A DNA stretch of 50,887 nt, from the IMG/VR virus record IMGVR_UViG_3300023180_000086, positions 1-50,887 of that record; one strand, given 5' to 3'. Below are positions 5,024 to 50,873 of the stretch, piece after piece. Source of the DNA: a virus. Both the position numbers and the translations under genes were made by a program. The notes beneath the pieces are model-generated. The model saw nothing but the letters and a program-made list of their open reading frames with translations. It made no database searches and was not told the DNA's origin. Position 1 is the first letter of the stretch; each line of letters opens with the position of its first letter.

Positions 5024-5799
5024 TTTCTTCTCCTATATTCGTAAGTGCCTTGTGCAATAGCTGGGATTGTAAATCCAGCCCCCTGGAATCTAGATGTCTT
5101 AAATGCAGCCTCTCCCTTTGGCTTAAACTGAACAACAGGAGGATTACTTAGAGATCTAAAATCAATTGAAGTCATCATTCTTGGAGACTTTGTATGGACT
5201 ACTCCTACTTTCTTTTGAATATCAGCAACAAAAGATGAACATAGAACTTTGCCATCAATAGGATCTCTGCCAAATATCTTATCTAATGCAATCCTTTCTA
5301 GATTTGTATCCCCAAAGATAGCCATTCCTCCTAGCCCAGCATCGTACTTGTAGTTATTCAGTTTAACAGCTTGCTCGGCGTGTGTAACCATTCTCTGACG
5401 CATTGCGTCTGAAACATTAGGTCTTATCGCTAGCACTCCTTTATCACCTTTTTTTAAGTAATCAGAAAGCGTTCTTGTATGAACATCTCGACCTGGACCA
5501 ATATGAGCTAGACGCCCATCTCCTAAGTAAATAGCACTATGAAGATACTTACCCTCGGATAGCCGGAATAAATTGGTTTTCATTTTAGGAAAGAATCCCT
5601 TATTTTCTTTCCCTACTAATAAAACATCTCCTGGCTTTAGATTTTTTTGAAATGTTGGGATACTCTCAGTAGTTACCTTAGGGACAAGTCGCTGTAAGTT
5701 GCGTAAACGTGACCCTCTTCTTGCCAGTTTTAATCCTAGGGCTAAACTTGGTAAACTGATGCTGGCAAAGCCAATACTAACTTTATCTTCTCTTTTCAT
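5020..5799 (-). CDS. permuted NlpC/P60-like (YiiX-type) cysteine hydrolase
   Basis: A 259-residue protein. Residues 1-45 include a short hydrophobic stretch (8-25) and basic residues. Then LKPGDVLLVG (55-64) is followed by YLHSAIYLGDG with His87, and by VLCSSFV with Cys187. This His-before-Cys order and the PGDVLL opening are typical of circularly permuted papain-like (YiiX/YebB, LRAT-like) enzymes, which act on peptides, amides or lipids. The catalytic reading is inferred from these motifs. The start overlaps the glycosyltransferase gene by 17 bases; the stop overlaps the kinase GTG start. It may act on the cell envelope during entry or lysis. Confidence 0.65.
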   Translation of the reverse strand: MKREDKVSIGFASISLPSLALGLKLARRGSRLRNLQRLVPKVTTESIPTFQKNLKPGDVLLVGKENKGFFPKMKTNLFRLSEGKYLHSAIYLGDGRLAHIGPGRDVHTRTLSDYLKKGDKGVLAIRPNVSDAMRQRMVTHAEQAVKLNNYKYDAGLGGMAIFGDTNLERIALDKIFGRDPIDGKVLCSSFVADIQKKVGVVHTKSPRMMTSIDFRSLSNPPVVQFKPKGEAAFKTSRFQGAGFTIPAIAQGTYEYRRRK

Positions 5800-7348
5800 A
5801 GTACTCTCTAAGTTTGTTGCGATTCTTATAAGCTAATAGCCCTGCTCCACCCAATGCAACTCTTGCAGCATTTAACCTTAATAGCCTTCTATGCAGAGGA
5901 GCAAGTGGATTATTCTCAGCAATCCTTTTTGAAGTGACTAGATTTGCGATCTCAGTAGCCCCTCCATCAGCTGCAACACTAAGTCTAGAGTATCCCTTTT
6001 TCTGGCTAGAGGGGTTGGCAAAGAAATCATCAAGGGGCTGTACTCGATCCTGCTGAATATATACGGAACTTCTAATGTTTGGCTTGTACATCTTTTCAAT
6101 AGCAAAAGTATTTCTATAGCTTGGGCCGGCTTTAGAAACTGTGTTGTCCAAGAAAATCTTAAACGGTTTCCCAGCTGCACGAGCTTCTGTAATTGTAGTC
6201 CCGCCAGGTCTAATGATGTTTAGATCTGCCTCTTGCATCATCTTTGATAGGTTAGCAAAGCCTTCAATATTCAATGTAACACCAAGAGCCGCAGCTTTTC
6301 CTTTCATACTGTTGAGTCTTCTAATAAGTTTTGGATCATAAAGTTTGTGGCCTTTCTTACCTGCATAGCCTGTTACCACATGAATCGTTGCACCCTGCGG
6401 TAAGTTCTTAGACTTTAAGACAGTGTTAAGACCATCCTCAACGCCCATTCCCAAGGCTCCGCCAGAAATCGTAATGTTATACCCCTTGGGTAATATTTTA
6501 GTAAAGCTTTTCTTAGGAGGAGAGATGGGTAATGCAGATACTGTGTGAATTCTTCCTTTAAGAGTTGGGTGCTCTTTTTGTAGAATGGGCGCTGCGCTAG
6601 GTGTAGCAATATGCTGAGAGAAGCTGCCCATCGTGTTTTGAAAGAATGGATTGGGCATCTTAAATGGGGCCTGATCGGTATGCACAGTGTATATTGGGCT
6701 ATCAACATGCTTTTGCAAGAACATATCCATTCCAGAGTGCATATTAACGATCTGCTTGCCCGCTGTATCTTTACTAAACTTTTCCCAGTCGATCCCATTT
6801 GTATAGTAGTCATACGCCTTTACAGCATTTCCTGCGAGGTCTTTTGTCCCTTTGATAGTATCACGAGGCGTAAAAATCTTATTGAACTCTTGCATTCTAC
6901 CAGGAAACGCATAATCATCAAGATTCACTAACTGTACTTCAACCCCCTTTTTCTTTAATGCTTCAGCAACTGCCTTACCTTGATTTCTGTGGCCCGCCCC
7001 ACGGCTGTCATCAGTGTGTAGAACTACAAATGGAGCATCTGGCCTAAGGGCTCTCTTCTCTGTAGGAAGTAATCCCATTCCGACATACATTCCACTGCCG
7101 CCTGCTAATCCTGTAGCCGCAATAGTATTTTCTGTTTTATCCGACAGACCGGTTAGGGAAGCTATCTTTTCAAGCTCTAAGTAATAATACTTACCAGCTG
7201 TCTTTGTAAACTTATGGTCGGGTTTCATCTTTTTATAGATGCCCATAATGTATGCATAGTTATCTTTCTGGCCAGACTTTCTAGCAATCTCTGTTGCTCT
7301 TTGCCATTTCTCTTCATCACGTTTAGACTTAACTACACTATTAGGCAT
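5783..7348 (-). CDS. GT28-like glycosyltransferase (MGDG synthase/MurG type) with capsid-type tag
   Basis: A 521-residue protein. Residues 1-45 form a basic helical region ending in YIMGIYKKM. LELEKIASL (57-65) is the KxA motif shared with many virion proteins. A GT-B fold covers about 105-440: TDDSRGAGH (112-120) in the N-domain, HTDQAP (223-228), SGGALGMG (295-302) opening the C-domain, and the nucleotide-sugar loop PGGTTITEARAAGKP (381-395) with Glu388. These are the hallmarks of GT28 enzymes that glycosylate membrane lipids. The C-terminus is basic. It sits among tail and virion genes and just before a hydrolase gene. The KxA motif suggests packaging and proteolytic release, so it may be an ejected enzyme that modifies host lipid or envelope. 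Enzyme class is fairly sure; substrate is unknown. Confidence 0.78.
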   Translation of the reverse strand: MPNSVVKSKRDEEKWQRATEIARKSGQKDNYAYIMGIYKKMKPDHKFTKTAGKYYYLELEKIASLTGLSDKTENTIAATGLAGGSGMYVGMGLLPTEKRALRPDAPFVVLHTDDSRGAGHRNQGKAVAEALKKKGVEVQLVNLDDYAFPGRMQEFNKIFTPRDTIKGTKDLAGNAVKAYDYYTNGIDWEKFSKDTAGKQIVNMHSGMDMFLQKHVDSPIYTVHTDQAPFKMPNPFFQNTMGSFSQHIATPSAAPILQKEHPTLKGRIHTVSALPISPPKKSFTKILPKGYNITISGGALGMGVEDGLNTVLKSKNLPQGATIHVVTGYAGKKGHKLYDPKLIRRLNSMKGKAAALGVTLNIEGFANLSKMMQEADLNIIRPGGTTITEARAAGKPFKIFLDNTVSKAGPSYRNTFAIEKMYKPNIRSSVYIQQDRVQPLDDFFANPSSQKKGYSRLSVAADGGATEIANLVTSKRIAENNPLAPLHRRLLRLNAARVALGGAGLLAYKNRNKLREYYEKRR

Positions 7349-7355
7349 GACTGGC

Positions 7356-8111
7356 TCACTGAATCTTTTTTATCTGAGCAAATTGTGTCTTGCGCAGTCT
7401 GTTCTCTACTTTGTACAGCTCTTTAGTAATACTTTTCTTACGAATGGAAGGCGCTGTAGTAGCCCCTGCGACTGCTCCTACAATAGCAGCAGGGATCACA
7501 GTTTTCTTCAGAAACTTTTGAGCACCAGGATCCTTAACCATCGAAGCAGCAGCCATAAGAGGTGCGGCAACAAAAGAACCGATAACTCCACCTTGGGCTC
7601 TAGTTTTTCCAGTAGGCTCATAGTATTGAGACACAAGTTTCTTTTTTCTATCCTGCAGCTCAGGACGAGTCATCCAAGAGATTGGTTTGAAGGAAGCAGA
7701 TTTCTTCATGGGCTTTTCCCAGCCCTTTCTAATTCGTTTCTTTTTATGAAACTTTTTAAGACGATGAATCATGTACAGCTTTGCAGCCATAGCCGTAGGC
7801 ACACTAACTTTAAGGGCTGTTTTAAGGGGAGATATTTTCCCAACCCTTTCTACCTCTTTTAGATATTCAGGCTGTGCTAACAACATAGGATTCTTATTAA
7901 AATCAGTCCGCAATTTTTCCAACCTTCCGGCCTTCCACCCAACCATAGGAGATACTGTAAGGCCAAAAGAAGCGGCACCTGCACCTACAGCAGCTCCAGT
8001 ACTAGCATTAGATATATGCTTATCAGACCCGACGTACTCTTCAATCCTTTGCTTTCTTCTAAGATATGCCGCCTGTCTGGTCTTCTTTTTTTCTGCTTCT
8101 GATTTACGCAT
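7356..8111 (-). CDS. basic, glycine-rich membrane-active virion-type protein
   Basis: A 251-residue very basic protein with glycine/alanine-rich hydrophobic stretches near residues 40-60, 105-117 and in the C-terminal third (GAVAGATTAP region), of the kind that can insert into membranes. It contains MKKSASF, a KxA-like site. The start is the ATG at 8111, eight bases after GGGAG and sharing TAATG with the previous stop; an ATG two codons earlier is too close to the site. I do not recognise the family; ejection or pore function is inference. Confidence 0.65.
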   Translation of the reverse strand: MRKSEAEKKKTRQAAYLRRKQRIEEYVGSDKHISNASTGAAVGAGAASFGLTVSPMVGWKAGRLEKLRTDFNKNPMLLAQPEYLKEVERVGKISPLKTALKVSVPTAMAAKLYMIHRLKKFHKKKRIRKGWEKPMKKSASFKPISWMTRPELQDRKKKLVSQYYEPTGKTRAQGGVIGSFVAAPLMAAASMVKDPGAQKFLKKTVIPAAIVGAVAGATTAPSIRKKSITKELYKVENRLRKTQFAQIKKIQ

Positions 8112-9457
8112 TACCATAGCTCCCGTCTAGCCCAGTAGTTAGGGCTAAATGGATCATTCTTAGTTAGTTGACCACTTTTGTTCTTAATGCCCGCACTTCT
8201 AGTTAAATAGTTCTTTCTACGCTTCTTATCTTTATGCTGGGTAAAGTCTTCATACCCCTTCTGCCCAAAATGCACCAACTTAACTTTATCGCCTCGCTTT
8301 ACTAGAACCATCTTCTTTTTGTTTTTCCTATCAGAAGCAATTGGTTTATTATACCCAGGGAAGGTCCTACCTCGATATTCTATGGAGGCCTTCTTTATCA
8401 TTTTCTTCTTCACTTTCTTTAATACTTTCTTATGAGAAGTATTACAGTTTGAGGCTTTCTTTTGTAAAGAGGTTCCTGCGGCAAGTCCATGAGAGCTGTA
8501 CTGCTCTCCAGCTTTAGTCGCTTTTGCTTTCTTGCGTTCAGCAGCTCTTAACTTTTTCTTACCTTCCTCAGTGGCCTTTAGACGTTCAATCTTTTTTTCT
8601 GGAAGGTACACTCCTTTATTTTCGGAGGAGGTTTTTGTCATTCTTCCTCTAGCTTCTTGCATTTGTTGATTGATTTGTGCCATCCGTTCGTTGTATCTTT
8701 TTAACGCCTGCTGGTAAGCCTCTGAGTTTGTGTTTGTTTGGCCTTTTCTGCCTAGGATATTCTGAGGTGTTTGTACCTGTGGTGGAACTGGTTTCTTGAT
8801 CGGTGATTCAGGGTACTGAGATCTTGGAGTTAGTTCAGTTTTGTAAGGATTATTGCTTTGAGTACCTTTAATTGGTGGAGCATCAACAAAAGTCGACTTA
8901 AAGTTACTGGGGACTTTCGGAGTGGGAACCGGAGCCCCTTTAGCAAATCTTTGTGTAGACTTTAGCAATGTATTCTTAAAAGCAGCGTTAGATTGCTTAC
9001 GCATAGGCGTGTATAGATCCCCATGAGGATGTACCTCAACTGCTCCACTAGCTTTAAGATGCTCCAGCGCGGCCTTAATCACTTGCTTAGGAGCTTTTAC
9101 ATGCTTATGTAAGGCTTTCATACTTAAAGCCCCGCCTTCTTTCTTAAACGCAGACAGAATATCTTTAATAACCTTCTGATTGTTCTGCTGTGCAATCTTC
9201 GCAACCTCCCCAAAGAAGTTATCGAAAGTTCTTTCATTGATAGAAGATTGTTTCACCAGAATATTTGGATTTTGCCCTAAGGCATCATTTGTACGTTTCA
9301 TGCTTAGGGCTCCCTGTGTTTGACCGTACCCTTTCATATGAATTGCGTTCATAGTTCTAATTTTATTAGGGTTGGTTATTTTTTTATTACCTATCTGCAA
9401 AGGCTGAGTGTACTGCTGAGTCCTTGCAATGCTTCCAGTATCAAAAGAGCGACTCAC
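8111..9457 (-). CDS. winged-helix protein with DUF5754-like C-terminus
   Basis: A 448-residue basic protein. Residues about 96-151 read as a small winged-helix domain (ALEHLKASGAVEVHPHGDLY). The middle is proline- and glutamine-rich. The last about 90 residues (YRGRTFPGY ... HFGQKGYEDFTQHKD ... PNYWARRELW) match what I remember of DUF5754, a small domain of large viruses and phages. It starts at GTG (9457) behind AAGGAA, in a GTGA overlap. KxA-like sites (VAKIAQ, IKKASI) suggest it is a virion protein. Function unknown. Confidence 0.65.
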   Translation of the reverse strand: MSRSFDTGSIARTQQYTQPLQIGNKKITNPNKIRTMNAIHMKGYGQTQGALSMKRTNDALGQNPNILVKQSSINERTFDNFFGEVAKIAQQNNQKVIKDILSAFKKEGGALSMKALHKHVKAPKQVIKAALEHLKASGAVEVHPHGDLYTPMRKQSNAAFKNTLLKSTQRFAKGAPVPTPKVPSNFKSTFVDAPPIKGTQSNNPYKTELTPRSQYPESPIKKPVPPQVQTPQNILGRKGQTNTNSEAYQQALKRYNERMAQINQQMQEARGRMTKTSSENKGVYLPEKKIERLKATEEGKKKLRAAERKKAKATKAGEQYSSHGLAAGTSLQKKASNCNTSHKKVLKKVKKKMIKKASIEYRGRTFPGYNKPIASDRKNKKKMVLVKRGDKVKLVHFGQKGYEDFTQHKDKKRRKNYLTRSAGIKNKSGQLTKNDPFSPNYWARRELW

Positions 9458-10299
9458 TTTGTTTTCCTTAGAATGCTCTTAGCAACTCTTCTAGCCTGTT
9501 TCTTCTTGGTCAATGGAATAATGGCCTCATCTCCATCCTCTGCTACGCGGATGATTCTGCCCTTACCTTTGGGGTCTTTCTTAACAATCCCACCGTTTTT
9601 ATAACCAGGCATTTGTGGTTGTGCTAAGCCTTGAGGATAAGCTGCTTGCATGGCTTGCGTAGGGTTCATTCCCTGTGCTTGCATAGCCTGTACATTCATC
9701 ATGTTAGCCTTCTTCTCAAATAGTTTTCTCATAGGCTTACCCGTAACTACTGAAAATCCTTCCTCTTTTCTCTTTTTATACTCTGCTAATAGTTTTTGCC
9801 TTGCTTCCTTACCCTTTGCTTTTATATTATCACTAGCGTCACGGTATATTTTTTTCATTTTCTTATTGTGTGCTCTTCTTACAGTCTGACCAACATAATT
9901 GGGGTCAAACCTTTCTAACTCAGGATAGAAAGTATTCTCTACAATTTTATCTTTTACAGCTTTACGCCCAGGTCTTCCGTATTTTTGATACAATCCTTGA
10001 ATATTCTTGCTAGCTTTCTTTTCTTTAGACCACTTCCATTTTTGCTTTCCCCACTTCTTCAGTGAGTTATTCTTAGCAGTAGGTTTTGCTCCAGAGTAGC
10101 CACCACCTTTCTTTTTATAGATCTGAGTAGCTAGCTGCATCGCTCGCGCACTATGCTTACCACCCATCTTTGCCTTTGCTTCCGCTTTTGCCTGTTCCCA
10201 CAACTCTGGATTAGTCTTTGTAGCCGTCTGCGCAGCTTCTTTTATAATAAAGTCCATCTCAGAACGAAAGTATCCAATCATAGTTCCTGTAAGTTCCAT
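9454..10299 (-). CDS. DUF5872-like protein with a tape-measure-like C-terminal end
   Basis: A 281-residue basic protein. Near the N-terminus is IIKEAAQ (KxA-like). Next comes a region with NPELWEQAKAEAK and KKKGGGYSG that resembles DUF5872 (from memory). A Q/M-rich linker leads to an end reading YKNGGIV ... EDGDEAIIPLTKK. This last motif is typical of the C-termini of phage tape measure proteins (GGIV ... GEAGPEAIIPL). Its place straight after the tail chaperones is where a tape measure gene belongs, but 281 residues is far too short for a contractile tail, so it could only be part of one. Start at 10299 chosen for GGAGG nine bases upstream. Confidence 0.6.
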   Translation of the reverse strand: MELTGTMIGYFRSEMDFIIKEAAQTATKTNPELWEQAKAEAKAKMGGKHSARAMQLATQIYKKKGGGYSGAKPTAKNNSLKKWGKQKWKWSKEKKASKNIQGLYQKYGRPGRKAVKDKIVENTFYPELERFDPNYVGQTVRRAHNKKMKKIYRDASDNIKAKGKEARQKLLAEYKKRKEEGFSVVTGKPMRKLFEKKANMMNVQAMQAQGMNPTQAMQAAYPQGLAQPQMPGYKNGGIVKKDPKGKGRIIRVAEDGDEAIIPLTKKKQARRVAKSILRKTK

Positions 10300-10360
10300 G
10301 TTAACCTCCATAGCGTTATCACTAGATTAACATATAACGAACCGTTAGACTATGCTATTT

Positions 10361-11930: not shown

Positions 11931-11962
11931 ATTACTCTCCATTATGTACTGTAACTGTAACC

Positions 11963-11998: not shown

Positions 11999-12016
11999 GT
12001 ATTAACAGGTATAGAA

Positions 12017-12231: not shown

Positions 12232-12257
12232 TCGGTGTGTGGATTTAGTGGCGGGGA

Positions 12258-13043
12258 TTAAGTTGCCGAACCTACTTCGTCAACTCCACTAAAGATATCG
12301 CTATCGTAGATAGTGTCAAGGGAAGCAGTATCCAAGGGAATCATTCGTTCAAATGTAATGGACGCATTTTCTGTGATGATTGTACCACCAGCATCTGTAC
12401 CAAATCCGTGATTGGTTACCATACATTGCTCGAAGTAGAACGCACCTACAACATCAGCATTGCTATCTTTCATAAACAATGCTAAGCCAATAGGTTGAGA
12501 AAATACATCCGATGCCAAGTCAAGCCATAGATTACCATTAGGCTCTCCAGGTGCTTTGAGGTATCGATCTTTCTTACCACCGTCTGCAGAACCTGTGTAG
12601 GCATTCAAACCTGCAAACCCTGTCTGGTCGCCATTTACAAGGTTATTAAAAGATGTGCCTGCAAAGAAGTCAGCATCGCTTTTAATATCACCTGAAGCTG
12701 TAGCATAAAGAACTCTAAGAAGAGAAGGACCGTGGTACATAATTCTACCAAGTCCTAGGTTTCCTACTGTTCTACCACGGATCATGTAAGAACGTTCAGA
12801 GCCGATCTCAAAGAGTCTCATTACAGAAGACTGTTGACCTAAGTTAAATTGTTGAATAACGCCAATAGGAAAGATGAAATCTGCGTCATTACCTGCAAGC
12901 TGAGCGTCTGCACCAGCTGCTGCAGCCAACCGAGCTGGACCTGCGGCCAACATAGTGAAAGCAGCATTTACATAACGACCTTCTGTCATTCCTTGTTGTA
13001 CGTTTCTATTAAAGTAATTCCATTCGGAAAATGTTCTAGCCAT
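12258..13043 (-). CDS. tail tube protein
   Basis: A 261-residue protein with the core FPIGVIQQFNLGQQSS ... LFEIGSERSYMIRGRTVGN ... YHGPSLLRVLY (about residues 56-112), a pattern I associate with inner tube proteins of large contractile-tail phages (gp19/Hcp-like fold). The C-terminal half contains FEQCMVTNHGF and ENASITFERM, typical tube strands. It lies two genes after the sheath and just before a terminator. GAGG lies eight bases before the ATG. Assigned from motif memory plus context. Confidence 0.75.
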   Translation of the reverse strand: MARTFSEWNYFNRNVQQGMTEGRYVNAAFTMLAAGPARLAAAAGADAQLAGNDADFIFPIGVIQQFNLGQQSSVMRLFEIGSERSYMIRGRTVGNLGLGRIMYHGPSLLRVLYATASGDIKSDADFFAGTSFNNLVNGDQTGFAGLNAYTGSADGGKKDRYLKAPGEPNGNLWLDLASDVFSQPIGLALFMKDSNADVVGAFYFEQCMVTNHGFGTDAGGTIITENASITFERMIPLDTASLDTIYDSDIFSGVDEVGSAT

Positions 13044-13046: not shown

Positions 13047-13571
13047 TTACCTCTGTTGTTGTTGTGCCTGTGGTTGAGCCTGTTGTGGTTGCTGTTGCTG
13101 CGCTTGTTGAGGCGGCTGCGGTGCTGGTGCTGGAGCCGGCTGGCCACTAGACATTTCTGGTTGTGTATTTTGTTTATTAATGAATTCTGTTGCTTGCTCT
13201 TTCATCTTTGATAGAGCTTCTTCTTTCTTAGCTTGAATGTATCCTTCACGCTTTGCTCTGGCGATCATCTCTTCACCACCAGTGATCCAACCCGGTTCCT
13301 GCATATTTGGAACAAACTTTTGTAGTTTTGGATTGAATGTGTACCCAGGTACAGGTAGAATCATCGGGTTCATTTTGGCTGTTCCATCCTTCATCTTAGA
13401 AAACTGGACCCCAAACATCTGCCCTGGGGATGTCACCTTCGGATCTTTAATTCTTTTAATCTCTGTAACTTCATCTATAGTCTCTTCTTTTACTAGAGAA
13501 GCAGAGGAGTCAGCGTCCTGCGGCTGGTTCGCAATCTTTTCCAACTCTTGAAGAAAGTAGCTTGTGATCAT
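13047..13571 (-). CDS. KxA-tagged virion protein with P/Q-rich tail
   Basis: A 174-residue protein. LQELEKIANQ sits at residues 7-16 if the start is the ATG at 13571 (AGGA seven bases upstream), a better choice than the ATG six codons earlier. The middle holds a conserved-looking PVPGYTFNPKLQKFVP stretch, then a coiled helix, then about 40 residues of almost only P, Q and A. The N-terminal motif suggests capsid targeting or maturation cleavage. Function unknown. Confidence 0.65.
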   Translation of the reverse strand: MITSYFLQELEKIANQPQDADSSASLVKEETIDEVTEIKRIKDPKVTSPGQMFGVQFSKMKDGTAKMNPMILPVPGYTFNPKLQKFVPNMQEPGWITGGEEMIARAKREGYIQAKKEEALSKMKEQATEFINKQNTQPEMSSGQPAPAPAPQPPQQAQQQQPQQAQPQAQQQQR

Positions 13572-13578
13572 TAAAGTC

Positions 13579-14532
13579 CTATCGTGCATTTCTTTTTTCT
13601 ACCTCTTTCAATAGATTCTTATATCTGCTTTGCTTTTTACGATTATTCATCACTGCTGAGATACCACCAAGAACACCAAGAGCCAGAGGAGCCTTCGATC
13701 TACTCAGTATAAACTTCTTTAAAAAGTCTCTTTCAAGCTTCTTCTGAGAAGGTGCAATTAATCCTAATCGCTTAGCACGGTCTGTGCCAACGTCATACAG
13801 TTTGGTGAACTGTTTAGTGTCTAGTAGCGACCCTGATCGACCTACACTGGCATAATCTTTTGCAATGATAGTTTGCGCAGTAGGCTCTTTAAACATCGTA
13901 TTAAAACGATTCTTTGCCTCAGCAGCATCCACTCCATGTATTTGTTGGATGTCTGAAAGTATAGCATTCACACCATTCCTATCAATTGACTTTCCTTGTG
14001 CAATGCTTTGATTAACTCTATCCACTGTCGTGTTACCAGTTACTATCGGAGTCCATGAATGATTTTTTGTTAAATTTTGAGGGATTGATCCATCAAGCTC
14101 TTTCTTAATTGCATTTTCAAAACTATTTTTGATCTCATAATCCGGAATAACCACAGACCCCGGGACACTAATAGTCTGATTGCTTCTAACAATCATCGGG
14201 GCCAAGTCGTCTGCATTCTTAGCACCACCTTCTAACAAACCTTGCTTGATGTAGAAGGTATCAATCTGACGATTTGTATTTGCCTCTACCTGCTTCATTA
14301 AAGTCTTAGTATCTACTGACCCAAGACCCAATGCCAAAGGCACAGCAAAGGACACACCCATACCCTTAGCAAAAGCCTTTGCCGAAGAGTATGGATCTGT
14401 TGAAGCACGTAAGTTCTCAAGAGCACCCTGCGATTGCTCTTCTCGCAAGATGTCTTGAGGCGTTACCTTAGCAACTTTTTCCAGTGCTGAAGCGAAACTT
14501 ACAGCTGTAATGTGATGTCGATGTAGTTGCAT
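13579..14532 (-). CDS. KxA-tagged virion protein (317 aa)
   Basis: A 317-residue protein with FASALEKVAKV at residues 13-23, then helical regions and a hydrophobic segment near 52-68, and a basic end. It overlaps the sheath gene by 34 bases out of frame; no other start codon is available before the motif and no ribosome binding site is visible, so translation is probably coupled to the sheath. Function unknown; the motif suggests an internal or cleaved virion protein. Confidence 0.62.
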   Translation of the reverse strand: MQLHRHHITAVSFASALEKVAKVTPQDILREEQSQGALENLRASTDPYSSAKAFAKGMGVSFAVPLALGLGSVDTKTLMKQVEANTNRQIDTFYIKQGLLEGGAKNADDLAPMIVRSNQTISVPGSVVIPDYEIKNSFENAIKKELDGSIPQNLTKNHSWTPIVTGNTTVDRVNQSIAQGKSIDRNGVNAILSDIQQIHGVDAAEAKNRFNTMFKEPTAQTIIAKDYASVGRSGSLLDTKQFTKLYDVGTDRAKRLGLIAPSQKKLERDFLKKFILSRSKAPLALGVLGGISAVMNNRKKQSRYKNLLKEVEKRNAR

Positions 14533-17692: not shown

Positions 17693-18472
17693 CTAAGATG
17701 ATGATGTACTGACCCAACGAAGTATCTCGACGCCGTCTGAGTCACTATTGACCTCTCCGTCACTATCTATAGCATCTGGAAACAATAGAGATCCGTTAAG
17801 TTTTCTAGCGATTGTGTTAACTGTAACACTAATTTCTGAAAGTGTCTGTGCTGTTGGTGTGATTGACCACGTTTCTTGGTAGTAAACAGGAAATGAAACT
17901 GGGACATTAATAAAGTCCTCATCGCTGTCTCCACCTAAAAAAGAGTTGGCTGGCGATTCAGAACCAACGGTAACCCTCTGGCCAATCTGAAAGAATCCAT
18001 ACTTCTGTAACTCTCTACGATAAAACTTAAGCGCTTTAGCAACTGACATTGCTAAAGTTTCCGCCTCCAGACCAATCCTGGAGATACAGTTTATTACGTA
18101 TTGTCCTGTTAACATATCTGTATGCGTTCTCTTTCCGGTTGATATTTTATGATTTCTTAGATTGTCTAACCCAAGGTTTGCGTAATTAAAAGGGGTCCTT
18201 GAAACGATAATTGCGGGTCTTTTTTCGATTGTATCTGTACCGATCGTCCCCGAGTCCGTTATTATTATCTCCGTCACCGTCTCGCTCGTTCCCCCTGAAA
18301 ATGGGTCCTCGTCCGGTGTGTAAAGGAACTCCCCCGTCTCCTGTTGGCTGAAATAGTGGCGAAGAAACTTGAGGATTATGTCCTTGGTGTCGCTGAGAAT
18401 GTTGTTGCTTAGAGGATAATACGTTCTTATTACGGTTTCTCTTGCTGCTATTGCGTCGCTTCTTGTTCCCAT
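17693..18472 (-). CDS. probable tail terminator or neck protein
   Basis: A 259-residue protein just upstream of the sheath. It has RPAIIVSRTPFNYANLGLDN and, later, VPVSFPVYYQETWSITP, a beta-rich pattern seen in proteins of the neck/tail-terminator class in large myophages. AGGA lies about ten bases before the ATG. Its first 287 bases overlap the preceding gene out of frame. Assigned mainly by position between the neck protein and the sheath. Confidence 0.6.
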   Translation of the reverse strand: MGTRSDAIAARETVIRTYYPLSNNILSDTKDIILKFLRHYFSQQETGEFLYTPDEDPFSGGTSETVTEIIITDSGTIGTDTIEKRPAIIVSRTPFNYANLGLDNLRNHKISTGKRTHTDMLTGQYVINCISRIGLEAETLAMSVAKALKFYRRELQKYGFFQIGQRVTVGSESPANSFLGGDSDEDFINVPVSFPVYYQETWSITPTAQTLSEISVTVNTIARKLNGSLLFPDAIDSDGEVNSDSDGVEILRWVSTSSS

Positions 18473-18716
18473 CTAAATAATCCTTTATCGCTTTGTTAGT
18501 CATTATAGCAGAACTACCAGCCAGTAGCCCACTTATTACTGCACGAGCTCTGCTTGAGGGTGCCTTCTTTAAAGCTGATAAACCCCTTTCAGATACGTAC
18601 GCAGTTCCAGCTCCAGTACCCACGGCGAGAGCTGCCCTAACAGCATCTAAAGCTTGCTGCTTTCTTTCATTGATCTCTGCTATCTTTTCAAGCTCTCTAT
18701 AAAAACTATTTTTCAT
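18186..18716 (-). CDS. KxA-tagged glycine-zipper protein overlapping the next gene
   Basis: A 176-residue protein. RELEKIAEI at residues 7-15 is followed by a helical region with small-residue repeats (AALAVGTGAGTAYV, ISGLLAGSSAIM) that could insert in a membrane, then a basic hinge. The last 95 residues are read out of frame over the start of the next gene and are low-complexity (N, R, G, D). Start at 18716 chosen for GGGA seven bases upstream. The functional part is probably the first 85 residues; the tail may be passenger sequence. Confidence 0.55.
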   Translation of the reverse strand: MKNSFYRELEKIAEINERKQQALDAVRAALAVGTGAGTAYVSERGLSALKKAPSSRARAVISGLLAGSSAIMTNKAIKDYLDGNKKRRNSSKRNRNKNVLSSKQQHSQRHQGHNPQVSSPLFQPTGDGGVPLHTGRGPIFRGNERDGDGDNNNGLGDDRYRYNRKKTRNYRFKDPF

Positions 18717-18741
18717 ACTCATATCCCAATCTTATCAAAGC

Positions 18742-21255: not shown

Positions 21256-21283
21256 TTTATACTCCATTGTATTATTTAAAAGT

Positions 21284-25981: not shown

Positions 25982-25994
25982 TTGGATTCTCCTT

Positions 25995-42037: not shown

Positions 42038-42994
42038 TTACTTTAGGCCCTTCCTCTGTAGATACTTTGTTAACTTTGTCTTTGGTGGTGGTACTAATTC
42101 TGGTTTCTTAAATGAGAAAGGTATAGAACGGATATAGTTCTCAGTAGGCTTCTTTACTCGCCTCTTAGACGCACTTGAAAGTAACCTAACACCAGGTAGT
42201 TTTTCAGAAGCAATTTTACCCAACTTTTCTGGGTCTGACATACCAGCATTCTGTAGGTTGCCTAGAGATTTCTTGGCAGTGGATATCAAGGTCTTGTTAA
42301 GTTTTTTTGTAACAATCGGAGCACTGGCGTTTTGTACTGACATTTGAGGCTTTGGTACAGCAAGCCCGCTTTTATTACGTCCTTTAGATCCAGTTACGGG
42401 TATAAGGTTCTTCTGAGCATGCTTTGCAAAAGGACGTACAATTCTAGGGTTGGCTTCAATGTGATCGGGCCGTACTGAGGACTGTAAAATTCTTTCTTTT
42501 AAGAACTTAGGAAGATTGTCATTGTAAGAAAGTCCTAGGTGTTTTTCTAGGTTCTCTACGTAATCTTTATTCAAACCTTCTGGAACAGACTCTCTTACTT
42601 TAGCCTTCATTGCAATCTGCGCATCCTGGCGACTCATTTTACCAGACATTACAGTCTGATTAACACGAGCTTCAATTGGTCCAGTTACTTCTTTTAACTT
42701 TTCTAAGAAGCCTTTTTCCATGTGCTCCTTTGGCTTTCTTGATCTACCAAACTTCTTGTAAGAGTCTTTGTATGCTCTTACTAAATATTCTGTTCTATTC
42801 AAGTCAGCGATACGAGACATAATGGCACTCTTTACAGCAGGCTCTAAACCTTCCTTATTTAGATAGCCCTGCAACAAGCCAAACTCTCTATGCACAGCAC
42901 TAAGCGCTGCATCCGGACGGTACGAATGCAGATACTTAAGAATATTTGGGTTTGCCACTTTTTCAAGCTCTAAACAGAAAGATTCATACATCAT
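42038..42994 (-). CDS. KxA-tagged basic virion protein (318 aa)
   Basis: A 318-residue basic protein beginning MMYESFCLELEKVANP (tag at about 9-16) with LGKIASE near the C-terminus. It overlaps the stop of the 643-residue gene (TAATG). Two N-terminal methionines are possible starts. The tag and basic composition fit an internal DNA-associated protein. Function unknown. Confidence 0.65.
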   Translation of the reverse strand: MMYESFCLELEKVANPNILKYLHSYRPDAALSAVHREFGLLQGYLNKEGLEPAVKSAIMSRIADLNRTEYLVRAYKDSYKKFGRSRKPKEHMEKGFLEKLKEVTGPIEARVNQTVMSGKMSRQDAQIAMKAKVRESVPEGLNKDYVENLEKHLGLSYNDNLPKFLKERILQSSVRPDHIEANPRIVRPFAKHAQKNLIPVTGSKGRNKSGLAVPKPQMSVQNASAPIVTKKLNKTLISTAKKSLGNLQNAGMSDPEKLGKIASEKLPGVRLLSSASKRRVKKPTENYIRSIPFSFKKPELVPPPKTKLTKYLQRKGLK

Positions 42995-44925
42995 TACATC
43001 ACCTTACTACGTAATCCCGATAGACCATCAATAACAGTTGTCATCTGGCTAAGAGCATTCTTAGCTGCTACTTCTTTGATATCATCCATACCAAGACGGC
43101 TCGCTACCAAGATCTCTGCCAACTTCTGCGCGGTTTTTTCGAACTCAGGAATGTAGTTAATATACATGCCAACGTTCTCTGGTGTCAAGAACTTAAGAGA
43201 TAGAATAGAATCTACAGTTTCTTTATCCACGATGACAGAAGCTTCTTTTACAAGATCTACTTGGAGAGAGCTAACATCTACTCTTGACTTTGCGATCTTA
43301 GACATGATTGCATCTTTAAGGTCAGTCGCTTTGTTGATTGTTCTGTGCTGATAGATGTTTGCATACCCATTTGCAGAAGCCTTCTTCATCAAAGAGCTGG
43401 ACTGTGTATCGGTCAAACCATAAGCGGCAAGTGCAAAGTGTGTATCTCTTGCATTCATAATGTCATCAAATGACGAACCCTTTAACTGCCAAGACATCCC
43501 ATCAGAGATAAGTTGCATTGAAGATGCCTTTTTCAACATTTCTCTTTCTCTGTGATCAACAGTTCCAGAAGCCACTTTGATACGACCTTCAGGGAGGGCA
43601 ATAAAAGACATAGAAGAGGGGATGGCATAGTGGCCAGATCCCATTGAGGCAATCTTACGGATACCATCAATCTTAGAAATCTTAACAGTTTCACCAGTAG
43701 AAAGTCTTTTACCGACATAGTACGCGATCTTCTCTTTGCCAAAGGGTGCTTCTACCATGTTTTGAATATCAAGTACTTCTGTAGCAAGAGCTCTGTTGCC
43801 ATCTTGTAGAGCAAAGACTCCCTTTCCTCGTATATTGGTATCAGGGAGTGTAGCTTTTGATACAAACCTACCAACCATGTCTTCTTGCATAGCAGACGCA
43901 GTTTTAGTAATGAGTAGCTTTGTGTACATCTGGTTGCCATCGAGATCAACCATCTTTGGAATAACCATACCAGTTACTTCGTCTTGGCCTGACTTAACCT
44001 CATAGTATCCCAGGTGATTAATGTCAGATGCTTCTTTAATAATCTCAGACTTTTTTTGAACAGGGTCTACTGTATAGGTAACAAAACTTTCTGAACACAA
44101 CTTCTCAAAGCCTTCTTTGTTTAAGTATGCCTGTGCTTCAAAGCGAGTAACCTCTTTTTCTACTGGGTCGTAGGCATGATGACTAGCAGTCTTTAAGAAG
44201 TATCTCGATCCTTCTTTACGAAACTGTACTACCGATGGCTTTACGGATTCTTGTCTAAGCGACGCAATGCTAGAAGCAGTTTTTTCTTTTGTAGTAATAA
44301 TGCGCTCTACAGCTTGTCCAAATGCGGGGTTTGATACAGCTGCATATCGAAGACCTGCACTCTTTGTCAGTTCGTTCTTAAAACTATTGATCTGAGATGC
44401 ACTTGCGTTCAACAAGGCAGCATCCAAAGCCTTTACACTGCTATGCTTGTGGATACCAACAGACTGCCGTAAGCGCTGTGCAGGAGGATCGATCTGAGCA
44501 CCCAACCCTGTTGCACTAAACTGTCCTGGTCTAGCCGAGCGATCAAACATCTCTGGCTTAAACAGCGTTTCAGAGATAAAACTTTCACTAGCTGGTCTAA
44601 TCTCATCTTTGTGAGATATTACATCCAAGGGTGCTACCTCATGATTACGGATTATAATCGGGAATGAAACGATCCTGTCAGACTCAGCTGCAGCTTGCTT
44701 TTCCATCTTGTGAGGGTATACCATCATCTTACCTACACCAAAACCTCTAGACTCATCAGTACGATCAATGGATACATCTACTTCATAGTTTCGAAGGTAA
44801 GGAACTTGCTTGTAAGCCTCCTGAAGAATGGTGATAGGCCACTCCTTTGAGTCTTTACCAAGTTGTGTTGAGTATGCAAGTTTTTCAAGACTGATCTTGT
44901 TTGCACGTTCTAATAAAGGTTTCAT
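42994..44925 (-). CDS. large virion protein with more than ten KxA sites
   Basis: A 643-residue protein with SLEKLAYS (12-19), MEKQAAA, LTKSAG, KEKTASS, FLKTASH, IIKEASD, ITKTASA, IRKIASM, LKKASS, LMKKASA, LVKEASV and FEKTAQK spread along its length. No TM helix. The spacing suggests that it is cut into many pieces, or that the motif marks domain borders. GGAG precedes the ATG. I do not recognise a family; by size and site number it may be the main internal or core protein. Confidence 0.68.
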   Translation of the reverse strand: MKPLLERANKISLEKLAYSTQLGKDSKEWPITILQEAYKQVPYLRNYEVDVSIDRTDESRGFGVGKMMVYPHKMEKQAAAESDRIVSFPIIIRNHEVAPLDVISHKDEIRPASESFISETLFKPEMFDRSARPGQFSATGLGAQIDPPAQRLRQSVGIHKHSSVKALDAALLNASASQINSFKNELTKSAGLRYAAVSNPAFGQAVERIITTKEKTASSIASLRQESVKPSVVQFRKEGSRYFLKTASHHAYDPVEKEVTRFEAQAYLNKEGFEKLCSESFVTYTVDPVQKKSEIIKEASDINHLGYYEVKSGQDEVTGMVIPKMVDLDGNQMYTKLLITKTASAMQEDMVGRFVSKATLPDTNIRGKGVFALQDGNRALATEVLDIQNMVEAPFGKEKIAYYVGKRLSTGETVKISKIDGIRKIASMGSGHYAIPSSMSFIALPEGRIKVASGTVDHREREMLKKASSMQLISDGMSWQLKGSSFDDIMNARDTHFALAAYGLTDTQSSSLMKKASANGYANIYQHRTINKATDLKDAIMSKIAKSRVDVSSLQVDLVKEASVIVDKETVDSILSLKFLTPENVGMYINYIPEFEKTAQKLAEILVASRLGMDDIKEVAAKNALSQMTTVIDGLSGLRSKVM

Positions 44926-44973
44926 AATATCTCCTAGTATATGCTACTATCGTAATTTTTTTATTCTAACAAA

Positions 44974-46635
44974 CTATGAAGCTGTGACAGTGACCTCTAC
45001 CAGACAGGCTGTGCCTTCTATTGGATCACTTGCTGTTACTTCTATAGTATATACGTTTCCAGCCGTTGACGCAGTAGGTTGTGTGTAATCGGGGGCTTCT
45101 ACAAACGTAAGCACTCCAGTAGAGGCGTTGATACTAAATATCGATCCGCCATTCTCATAGGATCTACTAACAACACCTAGACTACCATCCGCATGGTATT
45201 GATCCTGCCCACCAGTGATACTGTATGTGATTGGGCTTGGGCTACTGTTTAAACTCTGAGCCGTTATTGTACCAATAGCAGTATTGCCAGTAACAACGCT
45301 GAATCGATAGATCGGCACGCTGCCTGTAAAGGCTGTTGGTGTTACCCACTCTGGCGCCTTGTTAACAAGCGCTGTACTAGACCAAGCATCAGTAATCTCC
45401 GATGTCATATCTCCCCAAGCCGTTGTGTATTGTGAGAGATAGTTCGACAGCTCAGTTTCAAAGTCAAACCCAAGAAACTTAAATAAACCTTCTACCGCGC
45501 TAAAGCCACTGTAGTCTGCACCTTGAAAGGAAATCATCATACCAAAAACAACCCCATTATTACCGTAGTCTGGAACATCTTCAGCAGTTAGTATTCTGGA
45601 AACCAGTCCTGGCATCCCTGTGCTCTCAGCAGGATCTATTGGAACAATGCAAAAGTCTAAGGATGCAAGCGTATTAATGAAGTCGTCTAGGAGAGCAATG
45701 AAATCAGACAGACGCCCAAGAGCCGCTGCAATAGTATCTAAGTATCTAGTGATTGCATATATCAAATCGACAAAAGCGCTGGTACCCTTTGTTTCAAACT
45801 GATCTACCATCTTTTGCAGCTGCCGTAAGGCGTCACCAATAGGATCACCCAATAAGTCTGATAGCTTTGCAGAAAACCAAGCAGGTTGTCCTAAAGTCAT
45901 TCTAGGGAATGGAGCGTCTGCACCAAACTTACCGGATATGGCACTACCACGAGATTCGAGATAACCACCAATACTTTGACTAACTTTTGTACTATCCTCA
46001 CTAGTATCAAGCTCTGCACTACCCATTCTAAACAGAGACCTTCCTTCTTCTTGTTTAAGTCTTTCTTTCCAAATTGCTCCGTACCCTTCAGCACTATCTG
46101 CAAGAACATTTAGGGGACTTGTAGGGGAGATCATGTTGGTAAGTGCTCTGCAGGACTTGACTAGCCCAGACAGAGAGTCTACTGCCTCGATATTAACACC
46201 TTTTGTAATTAGAACAGCGCCCATAGGCTGATCGTTGTCAGGTCTGGGTGCAAAAGGGTTGTCTACACTTTGAGAAGACAAGGCAACTTCGTACAACCAT
46301 CCAGGCAAACCATTTGCAGTAAAGGGGGACTTCCCCTCGCTGAACCACTGGCTAATAACAAAGTCCTGATCGTACTTAAGATTAGAATGAACACAAGCAG
46401 ATACACCAGTGTTCATCGTATCCTCAACAACATTAATAATATAGGACAGCAACGTCTTTACGATATTGTCTATAAAGTCAACACTGAACTCAAGCAGGGA
46501 TGCAATCTTTTGTAGTAGCTTAGAAATAGAACCAACAGTCGTCTCTAAAGCTGTAACAACAGCAGCTGTATCGTCTGCTATTGCTTCAAGCTTCTCAGAG
46601 CTAAGACTTAAACTGGTCCATGTTGCTTCTGCCAC
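44974..46635 (-). CDS. large structural protein with C-terminal cadherin-like domain
   Basis: A 553-residue protein. It starts with a helical region (about 1-80, SKLLQKIASLLEF), a long central part of unknown fold, then a last about 110 residues that look like one cadherin-type beta domain (IGTITAQSL ... SITGG ... FSINASTGVLTFVEAPDY ... YTIEVTASD). GTG start overlaps the previous TAG by one base. Cadherin/Ig-like modules on tail proteins usually bind surfaces; here a tail or baseplate-associated role is likely. Confidence 0.68.
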   Translation of the reverse strand: MAEATWTSLSLSSEKLEAIADDTAAVVTALETTVGSISKLLQKIASLLEFSVDFIDNIVKTLLSYIINVVEDTMNTGVSACVHSNLKYDQDFVISQWFSEGKSPFTANGLPGWLYEVALSSQSVDNPFAPRPDNDQPMGAVLITKGVNIEAVDSLSGLVKSCRALTNMISPTSPLNVLADSAEGYGAIWKERLKQEEGRSLFRMGSAELDTSEDSTKVSQSIGGYLESRGSAISGKFGADAPFPRMTLGQPAWFSAKLSDLLGDPIGDALRQLQKMVDQFETKGTSAFVDLIYAITRYLDTIAAALGRLSDFIALLDDFINTLASLDFCIVPIDPAESTGMPGLVSRILTAEDVPDYGNNGVVFGMMISFQGADYSGFSAVEGLFKFLGFDFETELSNYLSQYTTAWGDMTSEITDAWSSTALVNKAPEWVTPTAFTGSVPIYRFSVVTGNTAIGTITAQSLNSSPSPITYSITGGQDQYHADGSLGVVSRSYENGGSIFSINASTGVLTFVEAPDYTQPTASTAGNVYTIEVTASDPIEGTACLVEVTVTAS

Positions 46636-48149: not shown

Positions 48150-48156
48150 AGTATCC

Positions 48157-48807
48157 TCATAAAATCTTACCCGGACTTATTGGTATCACTAATGGTGTTG
48201 GTGATGTAGGTCCAGTATATACAATTGGTGCCGTAGTTGTCATTGATGAGTACATTGTAGCATACACACCGCTTAATGCGCTCATTAGATTTACTATCTG
48301 TACTGTAAAGCCACCGTTAACATTGAATAACCCCTCTGAGTTAAATTGGGTAGCCAGTTCTATTAAAAACAGTCCTGCGGTGGCTGTAAGGGGTGCTTGG
48401 TTGTTTGGCAGTATCAAACCAGTGCCTAGCCCTCCTCCCGGAGGAGGCGAAGGCTGGTATATCGCTTGAGTTGCAGTCGCCCTTGCTATATCTGTAGTTA
48501 AAGCGTTTGCTATAGTTGGACCATACTGACCGGTCCAGCCTAGTGTAGTTATTAACTGCGCACCGCCAGTAGCAGCTGCAGGGAAAAAAATAGGAGTGCC
48601 AACTGGGACGGCTGTACCGCCTGCAACACCAGTATAGGTGTTTGTTACTGGTGTATTACGTAAAACATTAACCCAAGCATTACAGCAATACTTAAGCATC
48701 TTTTCTGTAGGATTAAACGAATCCTTCTTGGCAGACACAACAGAAGGTAGCCTAGCAACTAGGCCTGCCCAAACTACCCCATATACACCAGAACCTGTTA
48801 CTGGCAT
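48157..48807 (-). CDS. hypothetical Ala/Pro/Gly-rich protein
   Basis: A 216-residue protein, hydrophobic-rich with AGLVARLP and PPPGGGLG, ending in P/S/T-rich sequence. Start at 48807 shares TAATG with the previous stop and has GGGGGA upstream; a GTG four codons earlier is less likely. Composition fits a tail or baseplate component. No family recognised. Confidence 0.62.
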   Translation of the reverse strand: MPVTGSGVYGVVWAGLVARLPSVVSAKKDSFNPTEKMLKYCCNAWVNVLRNTPVTNTYTGVAGGTAVPVGTPIFFPAAATGGAQLITTLGWTGQYGPTIANALTTDIARATATQAIYQPSPPPGGGLGTGLILPNNQAPLTATAGLFLIELATQFNSEGLFNVNGGFTVQIVNLMSALSGVYATMYSSMTTTAPIVYTGPTSPTPLVIPISPGKIL

Positions 48808-49607
48808 TAAGTCCCCCACCCTAACTCTTTTAGAGTAGCCGCTCTTACCTGAGACACATCTGGAAATGAGTTTATACCACCAGTCATAGTATTCATTAAC
48901 TCTTGTTCTTTTTTTCCAATCTCAAACAGCTCTTCTAATGAAAACTTCTTCCCTCTTTTTTCTTTTTGTAGTTTTCGATACTCTTGTCGTGCTGCAGCTT
49001 GCCTCTCTGCCCGCAATCTTGACTGCATTTTTCTTTCAGTATTCACATAAGTATTCCAGTCTTTATCAATCTTTCGCATTTTATTCTTACTCATTCTTCT
49101 ACCCTGTAGCGCACCCTGCAAGGTTTGGGCATGCTGCGGCATTAGACTGGAATAGGTATCTACCTCTTTTTGCCTCATCAATCTAATTCCTTCTTTAACT
49201 TCTCTTTCTACTACTGGGTTGGGATCTGTAAAAGTCGCCATGATATTTAAATCGGGTAACCAAGCTCTTTGATTGTTGTGATTTCCACCTCTATCAGCTT
49301 TAGAGATTCTTCTTGCAGCATTTGGTCTTCGATGTTTTAAAAATTGTCTTAGCTCTCTACCCTCATGTAGCACCACCATGGCGTTCATAGCACGCTGCGT
49401 TCTTGGATGTAAAGGCTTATCAGACTGCTTAGGCAATAAGCGCGTTATGTTTCCCTTTACTTTTATAATCGGTACTTTAGGGTCACTAAGATCCATATAC
49501 CCAGTAGGAAATTTTTGCTTAGCCCTAAAGAAGTAGGGCTTAGATCGTAACTTCATAGCAGCTGTTTCTAACTGTTGTAAGGTAACTGCTATTTTTCTTA
49601 GACTCAT
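48807..49607 (-). CDS. basic virion-type protein (266 aa)
   Basis: A 266-residue strongly basic protein. VVLHEGRELRQF (about 78-89) contains an HE-x-x-E stretch of the zincin kind but lacks the second His, so no enzyme is called. A helical basic C-terminal half follows. MSLRKIAVT at the start is a degenerate KxA tag. It overlaps its neighbours by TAATG at both ends. Confidence 0.6.
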   Translation of the reverse strand: MSLRKIAVTLQQLETAAMKLRSKPYFFRAKQKFPTGYMDLSDPKVPIIKVKGNITRLLPKQSDKPLHPRTQRAMNAMVVLHEGRELRQFLKHRRPNAARRISKADRGGNHNNQRAWLPDLNIMATFTDPNPVVEREVKEGIRLMRQKEVDTYSSLMPQHAQTLQGALQGRRMSKNKMRKIDKDWNTYVNTERKMQSRLRAERQAAARQEYRKLQKEKRGKKFSLEELFEIGKKEQELMNTMTGGINSFPDVSQVRAATLKELGWGT

Positions 49608-50116
49608 TACTGTCCCCTCTTTTTATCTTGAAGATACTTTTTGACCTTTTGTCCACCCTTGTAAGTACCGTATGCTAATGTTCCATACCCTATGCCTGTA
49701 CCGATGTTTTGGTTTCTCTTTAAAACTTTCATATCAGTTTTCATGTCTTTAAGTTCTGACAAATATTGTGAGGTTTCATCTTTTACCCTTTTTAGGTCGT
49801 CAGGAGTAAGATTTAAAAAATCTAGGTCGTCAGGAGTAAGAGGGTCATTAAGAGATCTTTGGAAAGCAGTCTCCTTAGAGATTTCCTTATCTATGTCACG
49901 AAGCATATTTTTCGCGTTTCTACTAAATTCAATTCTATGTTTTGCAGTTCCTATCGGCGCGGCCACTGCTTCAAAGGCCTTGGCGGGAATAATTTTAAGA
50001 CTTCTGGGGTTAAAATTGGGGCCATTGCCAGATATTGCATCCGATATCCTTTCTACTCCTTTAAGATATTTTTGTCTTAAACTTGCACGTTTTTCTATAT
50101 ATTCATGTACGTTCAT
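49607..50116 (-). CDS. KxA-tagged virion protein, MNVHEYIEKRA
   Basis: A 169-residue basic protein whose N-terminus is the clearest form of the tag, MNVHEYIEKRASLRQKYL. A Gly-rich segment lies near the C-terminus (NIGTGIGYGTLAYGTYKGGQ), and the middle is coiled. An internal repeat LTPDDLDFL/LTPDDLKRV corresponds to a duplicated stretch at about 49794-49840. Probably targeted to the prohead and cut after the tag. Function unknown. Confidence 0.68.
   Translation of the reverse strand: MNVHEYIEKRASLRQKYLKGVERISDAISGNGPNFNPRSLKIIPAKAFEAVAAPIGTAKHRIEFSRNAKNMLRDIDKEISKETAFQRSLNDPLTPDDLDFLNLTPDDLKRVKDETSQYLSELKDMKTDMKVLKRNQNIGTGIGYGTLAYGTYKGGQKVKKYLQDKKRGQ
49794..49840. repeat. short direct repeat inside a gene
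   Basis: AGGTCGTCAGGAGTAAGA occurs twice, 29 bases apart, encoding repeated LTPDD motifs of the overlapping minus-strand gene. A recent small duplication. Confidence 0.65.
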
Positions 50117-50144
50117 TGTTATCCCTTTTTTATTAGTTGCGTTT

Positions 50145-50873
50145 CTATTTCTTTAATGGCATCGGTTTCTGGAAACTAGGAGGCCTCGCCGTCTGTCCCC
50201 AACGGATGCTATTCATCAGATTCTTTACAGAGTCTCGACCAATTTTACGGTCAATGGGTCTACCCCATTCCTTATTTGCCTTAAGTACGCCTTTTGCGTA
50301 ATTCCAAACATTAGGGTGTATTTGTCTGGCCCTAGTCTTCTTGTACCCTTCAATGCCAACTGTTTTAGGTCGAGCTACAACGGTCATCCCTCTTTTAATA
50401 GGAACATTTCCTGATCTGATGTGATGTCCCCTGTGAGCTTTGTAGCTGGCGGGCCTCATTAAGATGCTGCCGTCAGCCTGATCTACAGCGGATCCAGTAT
50501 CCCCATCATACCCCCTTTTCCCTAGTCTTCGTTCTTTATAGACTCGAGCCTCAGACGCTGGTATGGTATGAGGTTGTCCCATTACATGACCACGATCACC
50601 TATGATCAACCCATAGTCTTTTTTTCCGCTCTTGTAATATGGATTACCCACTTTACCCTTTTGGTGATCAATCCAGTAGCTGCCGTAACCTGTTTTGGTT
50701 CTGTGTGGATCTCTTGTTATCCTAACAACGCCTTCATCCATTAATGAGCGAATAGATTTAGAGGCGTGGGAAGCAGAATCCTCTCTTGTCATTAAAGCTA
50801 ACGCCCTGCGGTATTGTTTCTGAACAGATTTATTTGAAACTGCTAGTTTTTCTATATATTCATGAATATTCAT
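50145..50873 (-). CDS. KxA-tagged virion protein, MNIHEYIEKLA
   Basis: A 242-residue basic protein opening MNIHEYIEKLAVSNKSVQK, the same tag as the next gene. The rest has no recognised domain; it is rich in Lys, Arg, His and Gly, with repeated G-Y/G-R motifs (GYGSYWIDHQKGK, KRGYDGDTG). AGGA lies before the ATG. Only the first 14 bases of the window's right end lie beyond it. Probably internal; function unknown. Confidence 0.62.
   Translation of the reverse strand: MNIHEYIEKLAVSNKSVQKQYRRALALMTREDSASHASKSIRSLMDEGVVRITRDPHRTKTGYGSYWIDHQKGKVGNPYYKSGKKDYGLIIGDRGHVMGQPHTIPASEARVYKERRLGKRGYDGDTGSAVDQADGSILMRPASYKAHRGHHIRSGNVPIKRGMTVVARPKTVGIEGYKKTRARQIHPNVWNYAKGVLKANKEWGRPIDRKIGRDSVKNLMNSIRWGQTARPPSFQKPMPLKK

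Follow-up and report, generated by a model that had tools for sequence, protein, structure and literature searches.

Proteins of a myophage head region share a K-x-A signature, probably cut by a prohead protease that the phage itself encodes

The proteases that mature the heads of phages T4 and SPN3US are assembled inside the prohead, where they cut the capsid protein N-terminus and core and internal proteins, and that of SPN3US also cuts itself (PMC7411985, PMC5694885); for SPN3US, head-protein, capsid and self-cleavage are established (PMC5694885, PMC7411985, PMC10052503). Capsid targeting sequences in T4 have the form L/I-x-E and are cut at Phi-x-E↓ (Phi, hydrophobic residue; the arrow marks the bond), and the sites of phiKZ gp175/SPN3US gp245 are A-x-E or S-x-E. 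We studied a 50,887-base myophage fragment, the IMG/VR record IMGVR_UViG_3300023180_000086 (the whole stretch is hereafter called the window). Of the cultured phages, Salmonella phage Arash and the Vibrio phages D69/D148/D181 are closest to it, and Bacillus phage G and the I3/Bxz1-like mycobacteriophages come next. Many of the window proteins carry the motif Phi-x-K-x-A followed by S, G or A, which is very probably where a putative prohead protease, encoded by the phage itself at 25995-27527, recognises and cuts its substrates. The motif is statistically real, restricted to head-core families and fixed in position among homologues, and the protease has a predicted fold of the expected type with invariant His and Ser residues; from these observations we infer the cut itself and its exact bond, after the Ala.

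The system resembles that of T4 gp21 in predicted fold, in its short N-terminal tags, in its multi-site core proteins and in the N-terminal site of the capsid protein, but it differs in the motif and in a C-terminal helical domain of ~220 residues in the protease. With phiKZ gp175/SPN3US gp245 it shares a large myophage setting, a packaged internal proteome, the P3-x-P1 spacing and a proposed self-cleavage, as well as the Ser favoured at P1' in SPN3US, whereas P3 is K and P1 is A here. The enrichment of K-x-A speaks indirectly against a cut after x-x-E in the window phage. Sites of herpesviruses have an A↓S scissile pair, the same as here. The herpesvirus assemblin (S21; pUL26) is also alike in predicted fold, but the phage site has Lys at P3, and the phage C-terminal domain is at most a candidate scaffold. 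The pUL26 layout, with an N-terminal protease, a release site and then a scaffold-like domain, is comparable (PMC4498786). Sequence homologues of the protease core included gp94 of Gordonia phage Pupper, annotated as a 'capsid maturation protease', gp19 of phage G and Bixzunavirus proteins; gp19 shares the two K-x-A sites of the window protease, which the Pupper and Tonenili homologues lack. K-x-A↓S/A/G is best read as a new specificity within a known protease type, and searches of open-access full text turned up no account of a prohead cleavage motif of the K-x-A kind.

Motif frequency was compared with composition-preserving shuffles of the 66 window proteins. Phi-x-K-x-A-(S/G/A) occurred at 45 sites against 6.8 expected (maximum 16 in 500 shuffles) and Phi-E-K-x-A at 26 against 2.1 (maximum 6). 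Counted by protein, 21 had at least one Phi-x-K-x-A-(S/G/A) (6.1 expected, maximum 16 in 1000 shuffles) and 18 had Phi-E-K-x-A (1.9 expected, maximum 7), the latter still 15 against 1.6 when the four richest proteins were dropped. The broad pattern, lacking the S/G/A or E, was moderately enriched (32 proteins against 21.3), so that single broad matches outside head genes may be due to chance. A preliminary description made from the DNA letters had proposed this shared motif, and had named a frequency no greater than in shuffled proteins as an objection to it; the motif is real and that objection fails. The strings quoted there are encoded as claimed on the minus strand: MNIHEYIEKLA (50145-50873), MNVHEYIEKRA (49607-50116), VHEYLLEKQA (35375-36283), LQELEKIA (13047-13589), ALEKVA (13579-14532), ELEKLA (28388-29257) and GLEKEA (27537-28391).

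Because A, E and K are abundant in head-core proteins, amphipathic or coiled-coil scaffold segments rich in these residues could give the pattern by chance, and ExxA was likewise raised in the window. However, the excess was not reproduced by shuffles that keep composition, and KxA alone was enriched while the helical spacings KxxA (82 against 98.9 expected) and KxxxA (101 against 97.6) were not. The controls Phi-x-A-x-K, Phi-x-R-x-A, Phi-x-K-x-S, Phi-x-K-x-G and Phi-K-x-x-A showed no enrichment in the window either, and the reversed control A-x-K-x-Phi was mildly up (44 against 28.8). In addition, K33 of the protease was invariant in 76 homologues. The shuffles and spacing controls led us to reject an origin in composition or coiled coils, which has next to no chance of being correct.

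About two dozen window proteins carry the signature at what are probably cut places of the maturation protease. Phi-E-K-x-A fell inside the first 30 residues of 12 proteins, against 0.24 expected (maximum 3 in 1000 shuffles). This fits the T4-type capsid targeting sequence, an N-terminal propeptide of 10-20 residues that internal proteins have in common. The motif need not be N-terminal: 3-12 copies are distributed along the products of 20458-21267, 21284-21961 and 42994-44925, and 87-90 bp tandem repeats at 20925-21233 and 21616-21787 encode acidic units of 29-30 residues that end in M(E/D)KEAGA. In the capsid protein, sequences of relatives keep the site at the same place (K22 in 49 and A24 in 47 of 54-55 rows), and the Arash counterpart has LVKEA↓G. 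The motif was absent from the terminase, tube, endolysin, histidine kinase and response regulator of the window, as had been claimed for the first three and the kinase; the claim did not hold for the sheath, which has one copy, IDKPADY, where 0.98 is expected. A longer conserved tag before the motif was rejected, no strong consensus being found beyond about two acidic-leaning residues upstream, and HEY(I/L) was restricted to a few window genes.

For a site profile, 2469 K-x-A sites were taken from 320 proteins with many copies of Phi-x-K-x-A; this choice partly imposes P5, P3 and P1, but not P4, P2 and P1'. Its information was confined to about eight residues, with acidic residues at P7-P6, L/M/F/I at P5, E/V/T at P4, K at P3, T/I/V/L at P2 (G, P and D disfavoured), A at P1, S/A/E/G at P1' and A/V/D/E at P2'. 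Such an eight-residue profile resembles the subsites of an endoprotease.

The gene at 25995-27527 sits between the terminase and the major capsid gene, amid head-core genes, in the window and in relatives. The model of the protease core (residues 42-262; predicted local distance difference test 94, predicted template modelling score 0.89) had as best PDB matches T4 gp21 (5jbl, probability 0.99, E 0.014) and herpes simplex virus 1 (HSV-1) protease (8bq1, probability 0.69). The full-length model matched named prohead proteases in BFVD (E about 1e-6) and gave no useful match in the PDB, and a PHROGs search assigned the protein no function. In a low-scoring hhalign alignment with T4 gp21, H85 fell beside H132/H133 and S140 at S189; H85 and S140 are the catalytic His and Ser of T4 gp21. 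Judging by the predicted fold and the invariant His133 and Ser189, the protein is best read as a divergent relative within the superfamily of herpesvirus/T4-gp21 proteases. These features and the BFVD matches bear out the earlier assignment of a prohead protease that carries the motif itself: copies of the motif bracket the folded core, which is bounded by low-confidence segments of predicted disorder (residues 20-31 and 263-284), and phage G gp19 (29% identity) keeps both aligned sites (LVKTA↓A and LEKVA↓S). Core residues 199-215 also contain a conserved CxxC...YCxH, a possible metal site that would not be expected in T4 gp21.

A host or second phage protease might cut the motif instead, leaving the product of 25995-27527 as merely structural; its activity is a prediction, its Arash counterpart is annotated just as 'structural protein', and it belongs to no Pfam family. 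However, the predicted fold of a T4 gp21/herpesvirus protease, the invariant His and Ser, a gene placed amid the proposed substrates and immediately upstream of the capsid gene, and the motif at the protein's own domain edges make a different enzyme highly improbable.

Homologues were encoded at more than 100 IMG/VR loci; the 12 long IMG/VR records examined were all of 185-199 kb, each encoding a relative of Arash gp206, an RNA polymerase subunit, and the sole match among bacterial genome assemblies was one contig of a deltaproteobacterial metagenome-assembled genome. The motif was enriched in the head-region loci of nearly all relatives and recurred in Arash, D69 and more than 100 IMG/VR loci; an unsupervised residue-pair scan gave KxA as the top or near-top pair in many relatives. 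By protein family, we counted 123 motifs against 6.0 expected for 28388-29257 (34 members), 114 against 7.6 for 42994-44925 and 20 against 0.7 for 24738-25100. The terminase (5 against 4.8), the sheath (9 against 5.1) and the decoration-like 24187 had little or no excess, as had four families of tail or unknown proteins; the counts for 22000, 18742 and 17693 were 0 against 0.8, 1.3 and 1.6. Note that 42994-44925 is a distant relative of Arash gp218 (E 7e-4); a pattern scan for its wider relatives found none. In the near-195-kb genomes G001 and G007, motif-rich genes were grouped around those of the portal, polymerase, terminase, protease and capsid, and recognised tail proteins were without the motif. 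The head block of Bacillus phage G had 12 motifs against 1.9 expected, including the protease and a portal with MAKQA↓AS (motif start at residue 16), vs 2 against 1.5 in a 20-kb control stretch; its capsid protein was without the motif. K-x-A enrichment was absent from Tonenili and Pupper. In relatives rich in guanine and cytosine (GC), simple calling of open reading frames selects antisense frames, so that motif counts there are diluted. Substitution by R-x-A in high-GC relatives was rejected, as R-x-A was not enriched in the family of relatives; in Mycobacterium phage Tonenili (L158), Phi-x-R-x-A was raised (56 against 34.2 expected), and an R-for-K code is possible there.

Arash virions could be examined through two sets, the structural proteins of the GenBank annotation, which incorporates mass spectrometry results, and a published table (PMC10585845). 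The structural proteins had 32 strict motifs against 8.4 expected, and the others 13 against 11.3 (Fisher p 7e-6); tail genes gp228-gp239 had almost no motif beyond chance. In the published table the motif was present in 16 of 69 proteins with at least five unique peptides vs 8 of 180 others (p 3e-5; PMC10585845). The proposal that the motif predicts the internal proteome thus stands statistically but not gene by gene: by the same threshold, 16 of 24 genes with the strict motif were of the virion vs 53 of 225 others. This enrichment, like the very short N-terminal forms that resemble handles (MSLEKIA, MEKQAS, MPKSAS), would also fit a docking or targeting peptide that stays uncut and has a scaffold, portal or capsid partner, through which proteins enter the prohead. 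We consider that unlikely, as the motif flanks the protease core on either side and lies in the capsid protein N-terminus, small residues are preferred at P1 and P1', and the repeat arrays have one motif per 29-30 residue unit. Of the capsid-targeting and cleavage signal first proposed, cleavage is the best reading, given the protease edges, the capsid site, the restriction to the head core and the Arash virions; targeting would be an extension of it.

If the motif is a cleavage site, core and internal proteins, capsid protein and protease would assemble as precursors. The protease would release its own core through cuts near A35 and A260 (other sites extend up to A277), cut the capsid protein after A24, trim the N-terminal tags off internal proteins and chop the scaffold-like multi-site proteins (20458-21961, 42994-44925 and 28388-29257). 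Since the gene set matches each T4/SPN3US substrate class, i.e., capsid, self, single-tag (such as 50145, 49607 and 42038) and multi-site, we infer that the pathway here is the same but has K-x-A↓S/A/G specificity. By analogy with T4, copies at the N-terminus probably also act as tags for packaging.

Several points weigh against cleavage by this protease. The best PDB E-value of the core model in Foldseek is modest (0.014), the Pfam search was negative, and comparison with T4 gp21 was non-significant (hhalign probability 0.2 percent), as was that with SPN3US gp245 (0.8 percent), although both comparisons have low power because their T4 and SPN3US sides were single sequences. The proteases of T4, phiKZ, 201phi2-1 and SPN3US cut after Glu, and among them K-x-A is without direct precedent. 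Residues just before the core-edge site lie in a predicted strand. Some tags have merely 5-7 residues, with little to remove, which makes a direct recognition role plausible. Finally, the Arash table gives 100% coverage for the motif-rich gp223 and gp242, at face value no loss of tags. We set these coverage figures aside as evidence on tag loss, since the table is unreliable and at odds with itself: with 2 unique peptides, a 965-residue primase is listed there at 90% coverage.

Positions of the main features, motif-bearing proteins and other genes are given in Table 1; a portal gene was not recognised within the window fragment.

Table 1. Features of the window; arrows mark the candidate bond
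Feature	Position	Strand	Details
Predicted prohead protease, 510 residues	25995-27527	-	propeptide 1-35, core ~36-260, disordered linker, mostly helical C-terminal domain ~285-506
Invariant His133, proposed catalytic	27129-27131	-	78/78 homologues
Invariant Ser189, proposed catalytic	26961-26963	-	SMG motif; 79/79 homologues
Protease N-terminal site	27420-27437	-	MTKVA↓G; K33 76/76, A35 71/76 and S 5/76, next residue S/G/A 72/76
Protease core-boundary site	26745-26762	-	LMKVA↓S; K258 66/80, A260 64/80
Protease C-terminal-domain site	26256-26273	-	LNKVA↓S
Capsid protein N-terminal site	24095-24112	-	KEKLA↓A, residues 20-25
Head-core protein	28388-29257	-	N-terminal LEKLA↓G and more sites
Head-core protein	27537-28391	-	LEKEA↓F at residue 14, IIKQA↓S at 154
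Head-core protein	25598-26023	-	4 sites
Head-core protein	25113-25598	-	VEKIA↓S, IEKIA↓S and others
Head-core protein	24738-25100	-	AEKIA↓S and LAKTA↓A
Tandem-repeat protein	20458-21267	-	6 sites; 29-30 residue units ending MEKEA↓G or MDKEA↓G
Related repeat protein	21284-21961	-	4 sites
Small protein	20090-20446	-	MEKVA↓S, LQKVA↓S, MEKAA↓M
Head-core protein, 643 residues	42994-44925	-	12 sites
N-terminally tagged	42038-42994	-	LELEKVA↓N
N-terminally tagged	50145-50873	-	MNIHEYIEKLA↓V, site 50838-50855
N-terminally tagged	49607-50116	-	MNVHEYIEKRA↓S, site 50081-50098
N-terminally tagged	48807-49607	-	MSLRKIA↓V, single weak site
Motif-bearing protein	44974-46635	-	LQKIA↓S at residue 45
Tagged protein	35375-36283	-	likely true start MKNRNVHEYLLEKQA↓M
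Motif-bearing protein	33737-34498	-	internal MIKKA↓S and VLEYLEKKA↓S
N-terminally tagged	18186-18722	-	NSFYRELEKIA↓E
N-terminally tagged	13579-14532	-	SFASALEKVA↓K
N-terminally tagged	13047-13589	-	SYFLQELEKIA↓N
Motif-bearing protein	9454-10311	-	IIKEA↓A at residue 26, FEKKA↓N at 202
Motif-bearing protein	8111-9457	-	VAKIA↓Q, LQKKA↓S, MIKKA↓S
Predicted packaged enzyme	5783-7348	-	45-residue module, FTKTA↓G and LEKIA↓S (7157-7210); weakly matched GT28/MurG-like domain
Terminase	30789-32453		PHROG E 4.9e-54
Major capsid protein	23105-24169	-	PHROG major head protein E 2.4e-17
Sheath, 1072 residues	14499-17717		PHROG E 6.5e-15
Tail terminator-like	17693-18472
Endolysin	34500-35372
Tube	12258-13043

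We also advance, tentatively and with some doubt, the possibility that K-x-A alone is a minimal packaging signal of 5-12 residues that can pass from protein to protein. The protease or its scaffold-like domain would recognise it, hold the protein in the prohead and then cut it, so that unrelated enzymes could be recruited to the head by gaining it; examples would be the GT28-like product of 5783-7348 and the RNA polymerase of Arash and D69. The first ~45 residues of the former (VVKSKRDEEKWQRATEIARKSGQKDNYAYIMGIYKKMKPD) form a module shared, at 45-64% identity, with proteins that differ elsewhere and are encoded on several phage contigs, several of which are 312-536 kb long. The virion RNA polymerase subunits start with the minimal motif, MPKSAS in Arash (L002:93-4670) and MPKKAS in D69 (L003:6580-11163). 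Universal tagging of this enzyme was rejected: only Arash and D69 are tagged, and in a screen of 12 IMG/VR relatives no site was found where the N-terminus was intact (the L178 start and the L179 N-terminus are ambiguous). The GT28-like gene adjoins an untagged gene at 5020-5799, whose product resembles the permuted papain-fold proteins YaeF/YiiX (NCBIfam E 9.9e-5, a score short of the curated cut-off). At 3013-5023, histidine-kinase-like and response-regulator-like genes, as read from the sequence, lie beside a predicted membrane protein gene; they are untagged and unusual as phage cargo.

If true, K-x-A cleavage would be a new specificity across a large family of environmental myophages of 185-200 kb, and the code would name core, scaffold and internal proteins in phages whose genes almost all lack assigned functions. 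The cultured Salmonella phage Arash, for which mass spectrometry data exist, or Vibrio phage D69 would then be a test bed. If the N-terminal copies also target, foreign proteins could be brought into a large capsid by means of a short tag. The A↓S pair and the layout of a protease followed by a C-terminal domain recall the herpesvirus assemblin, and may bear on the common origin of these proteases.

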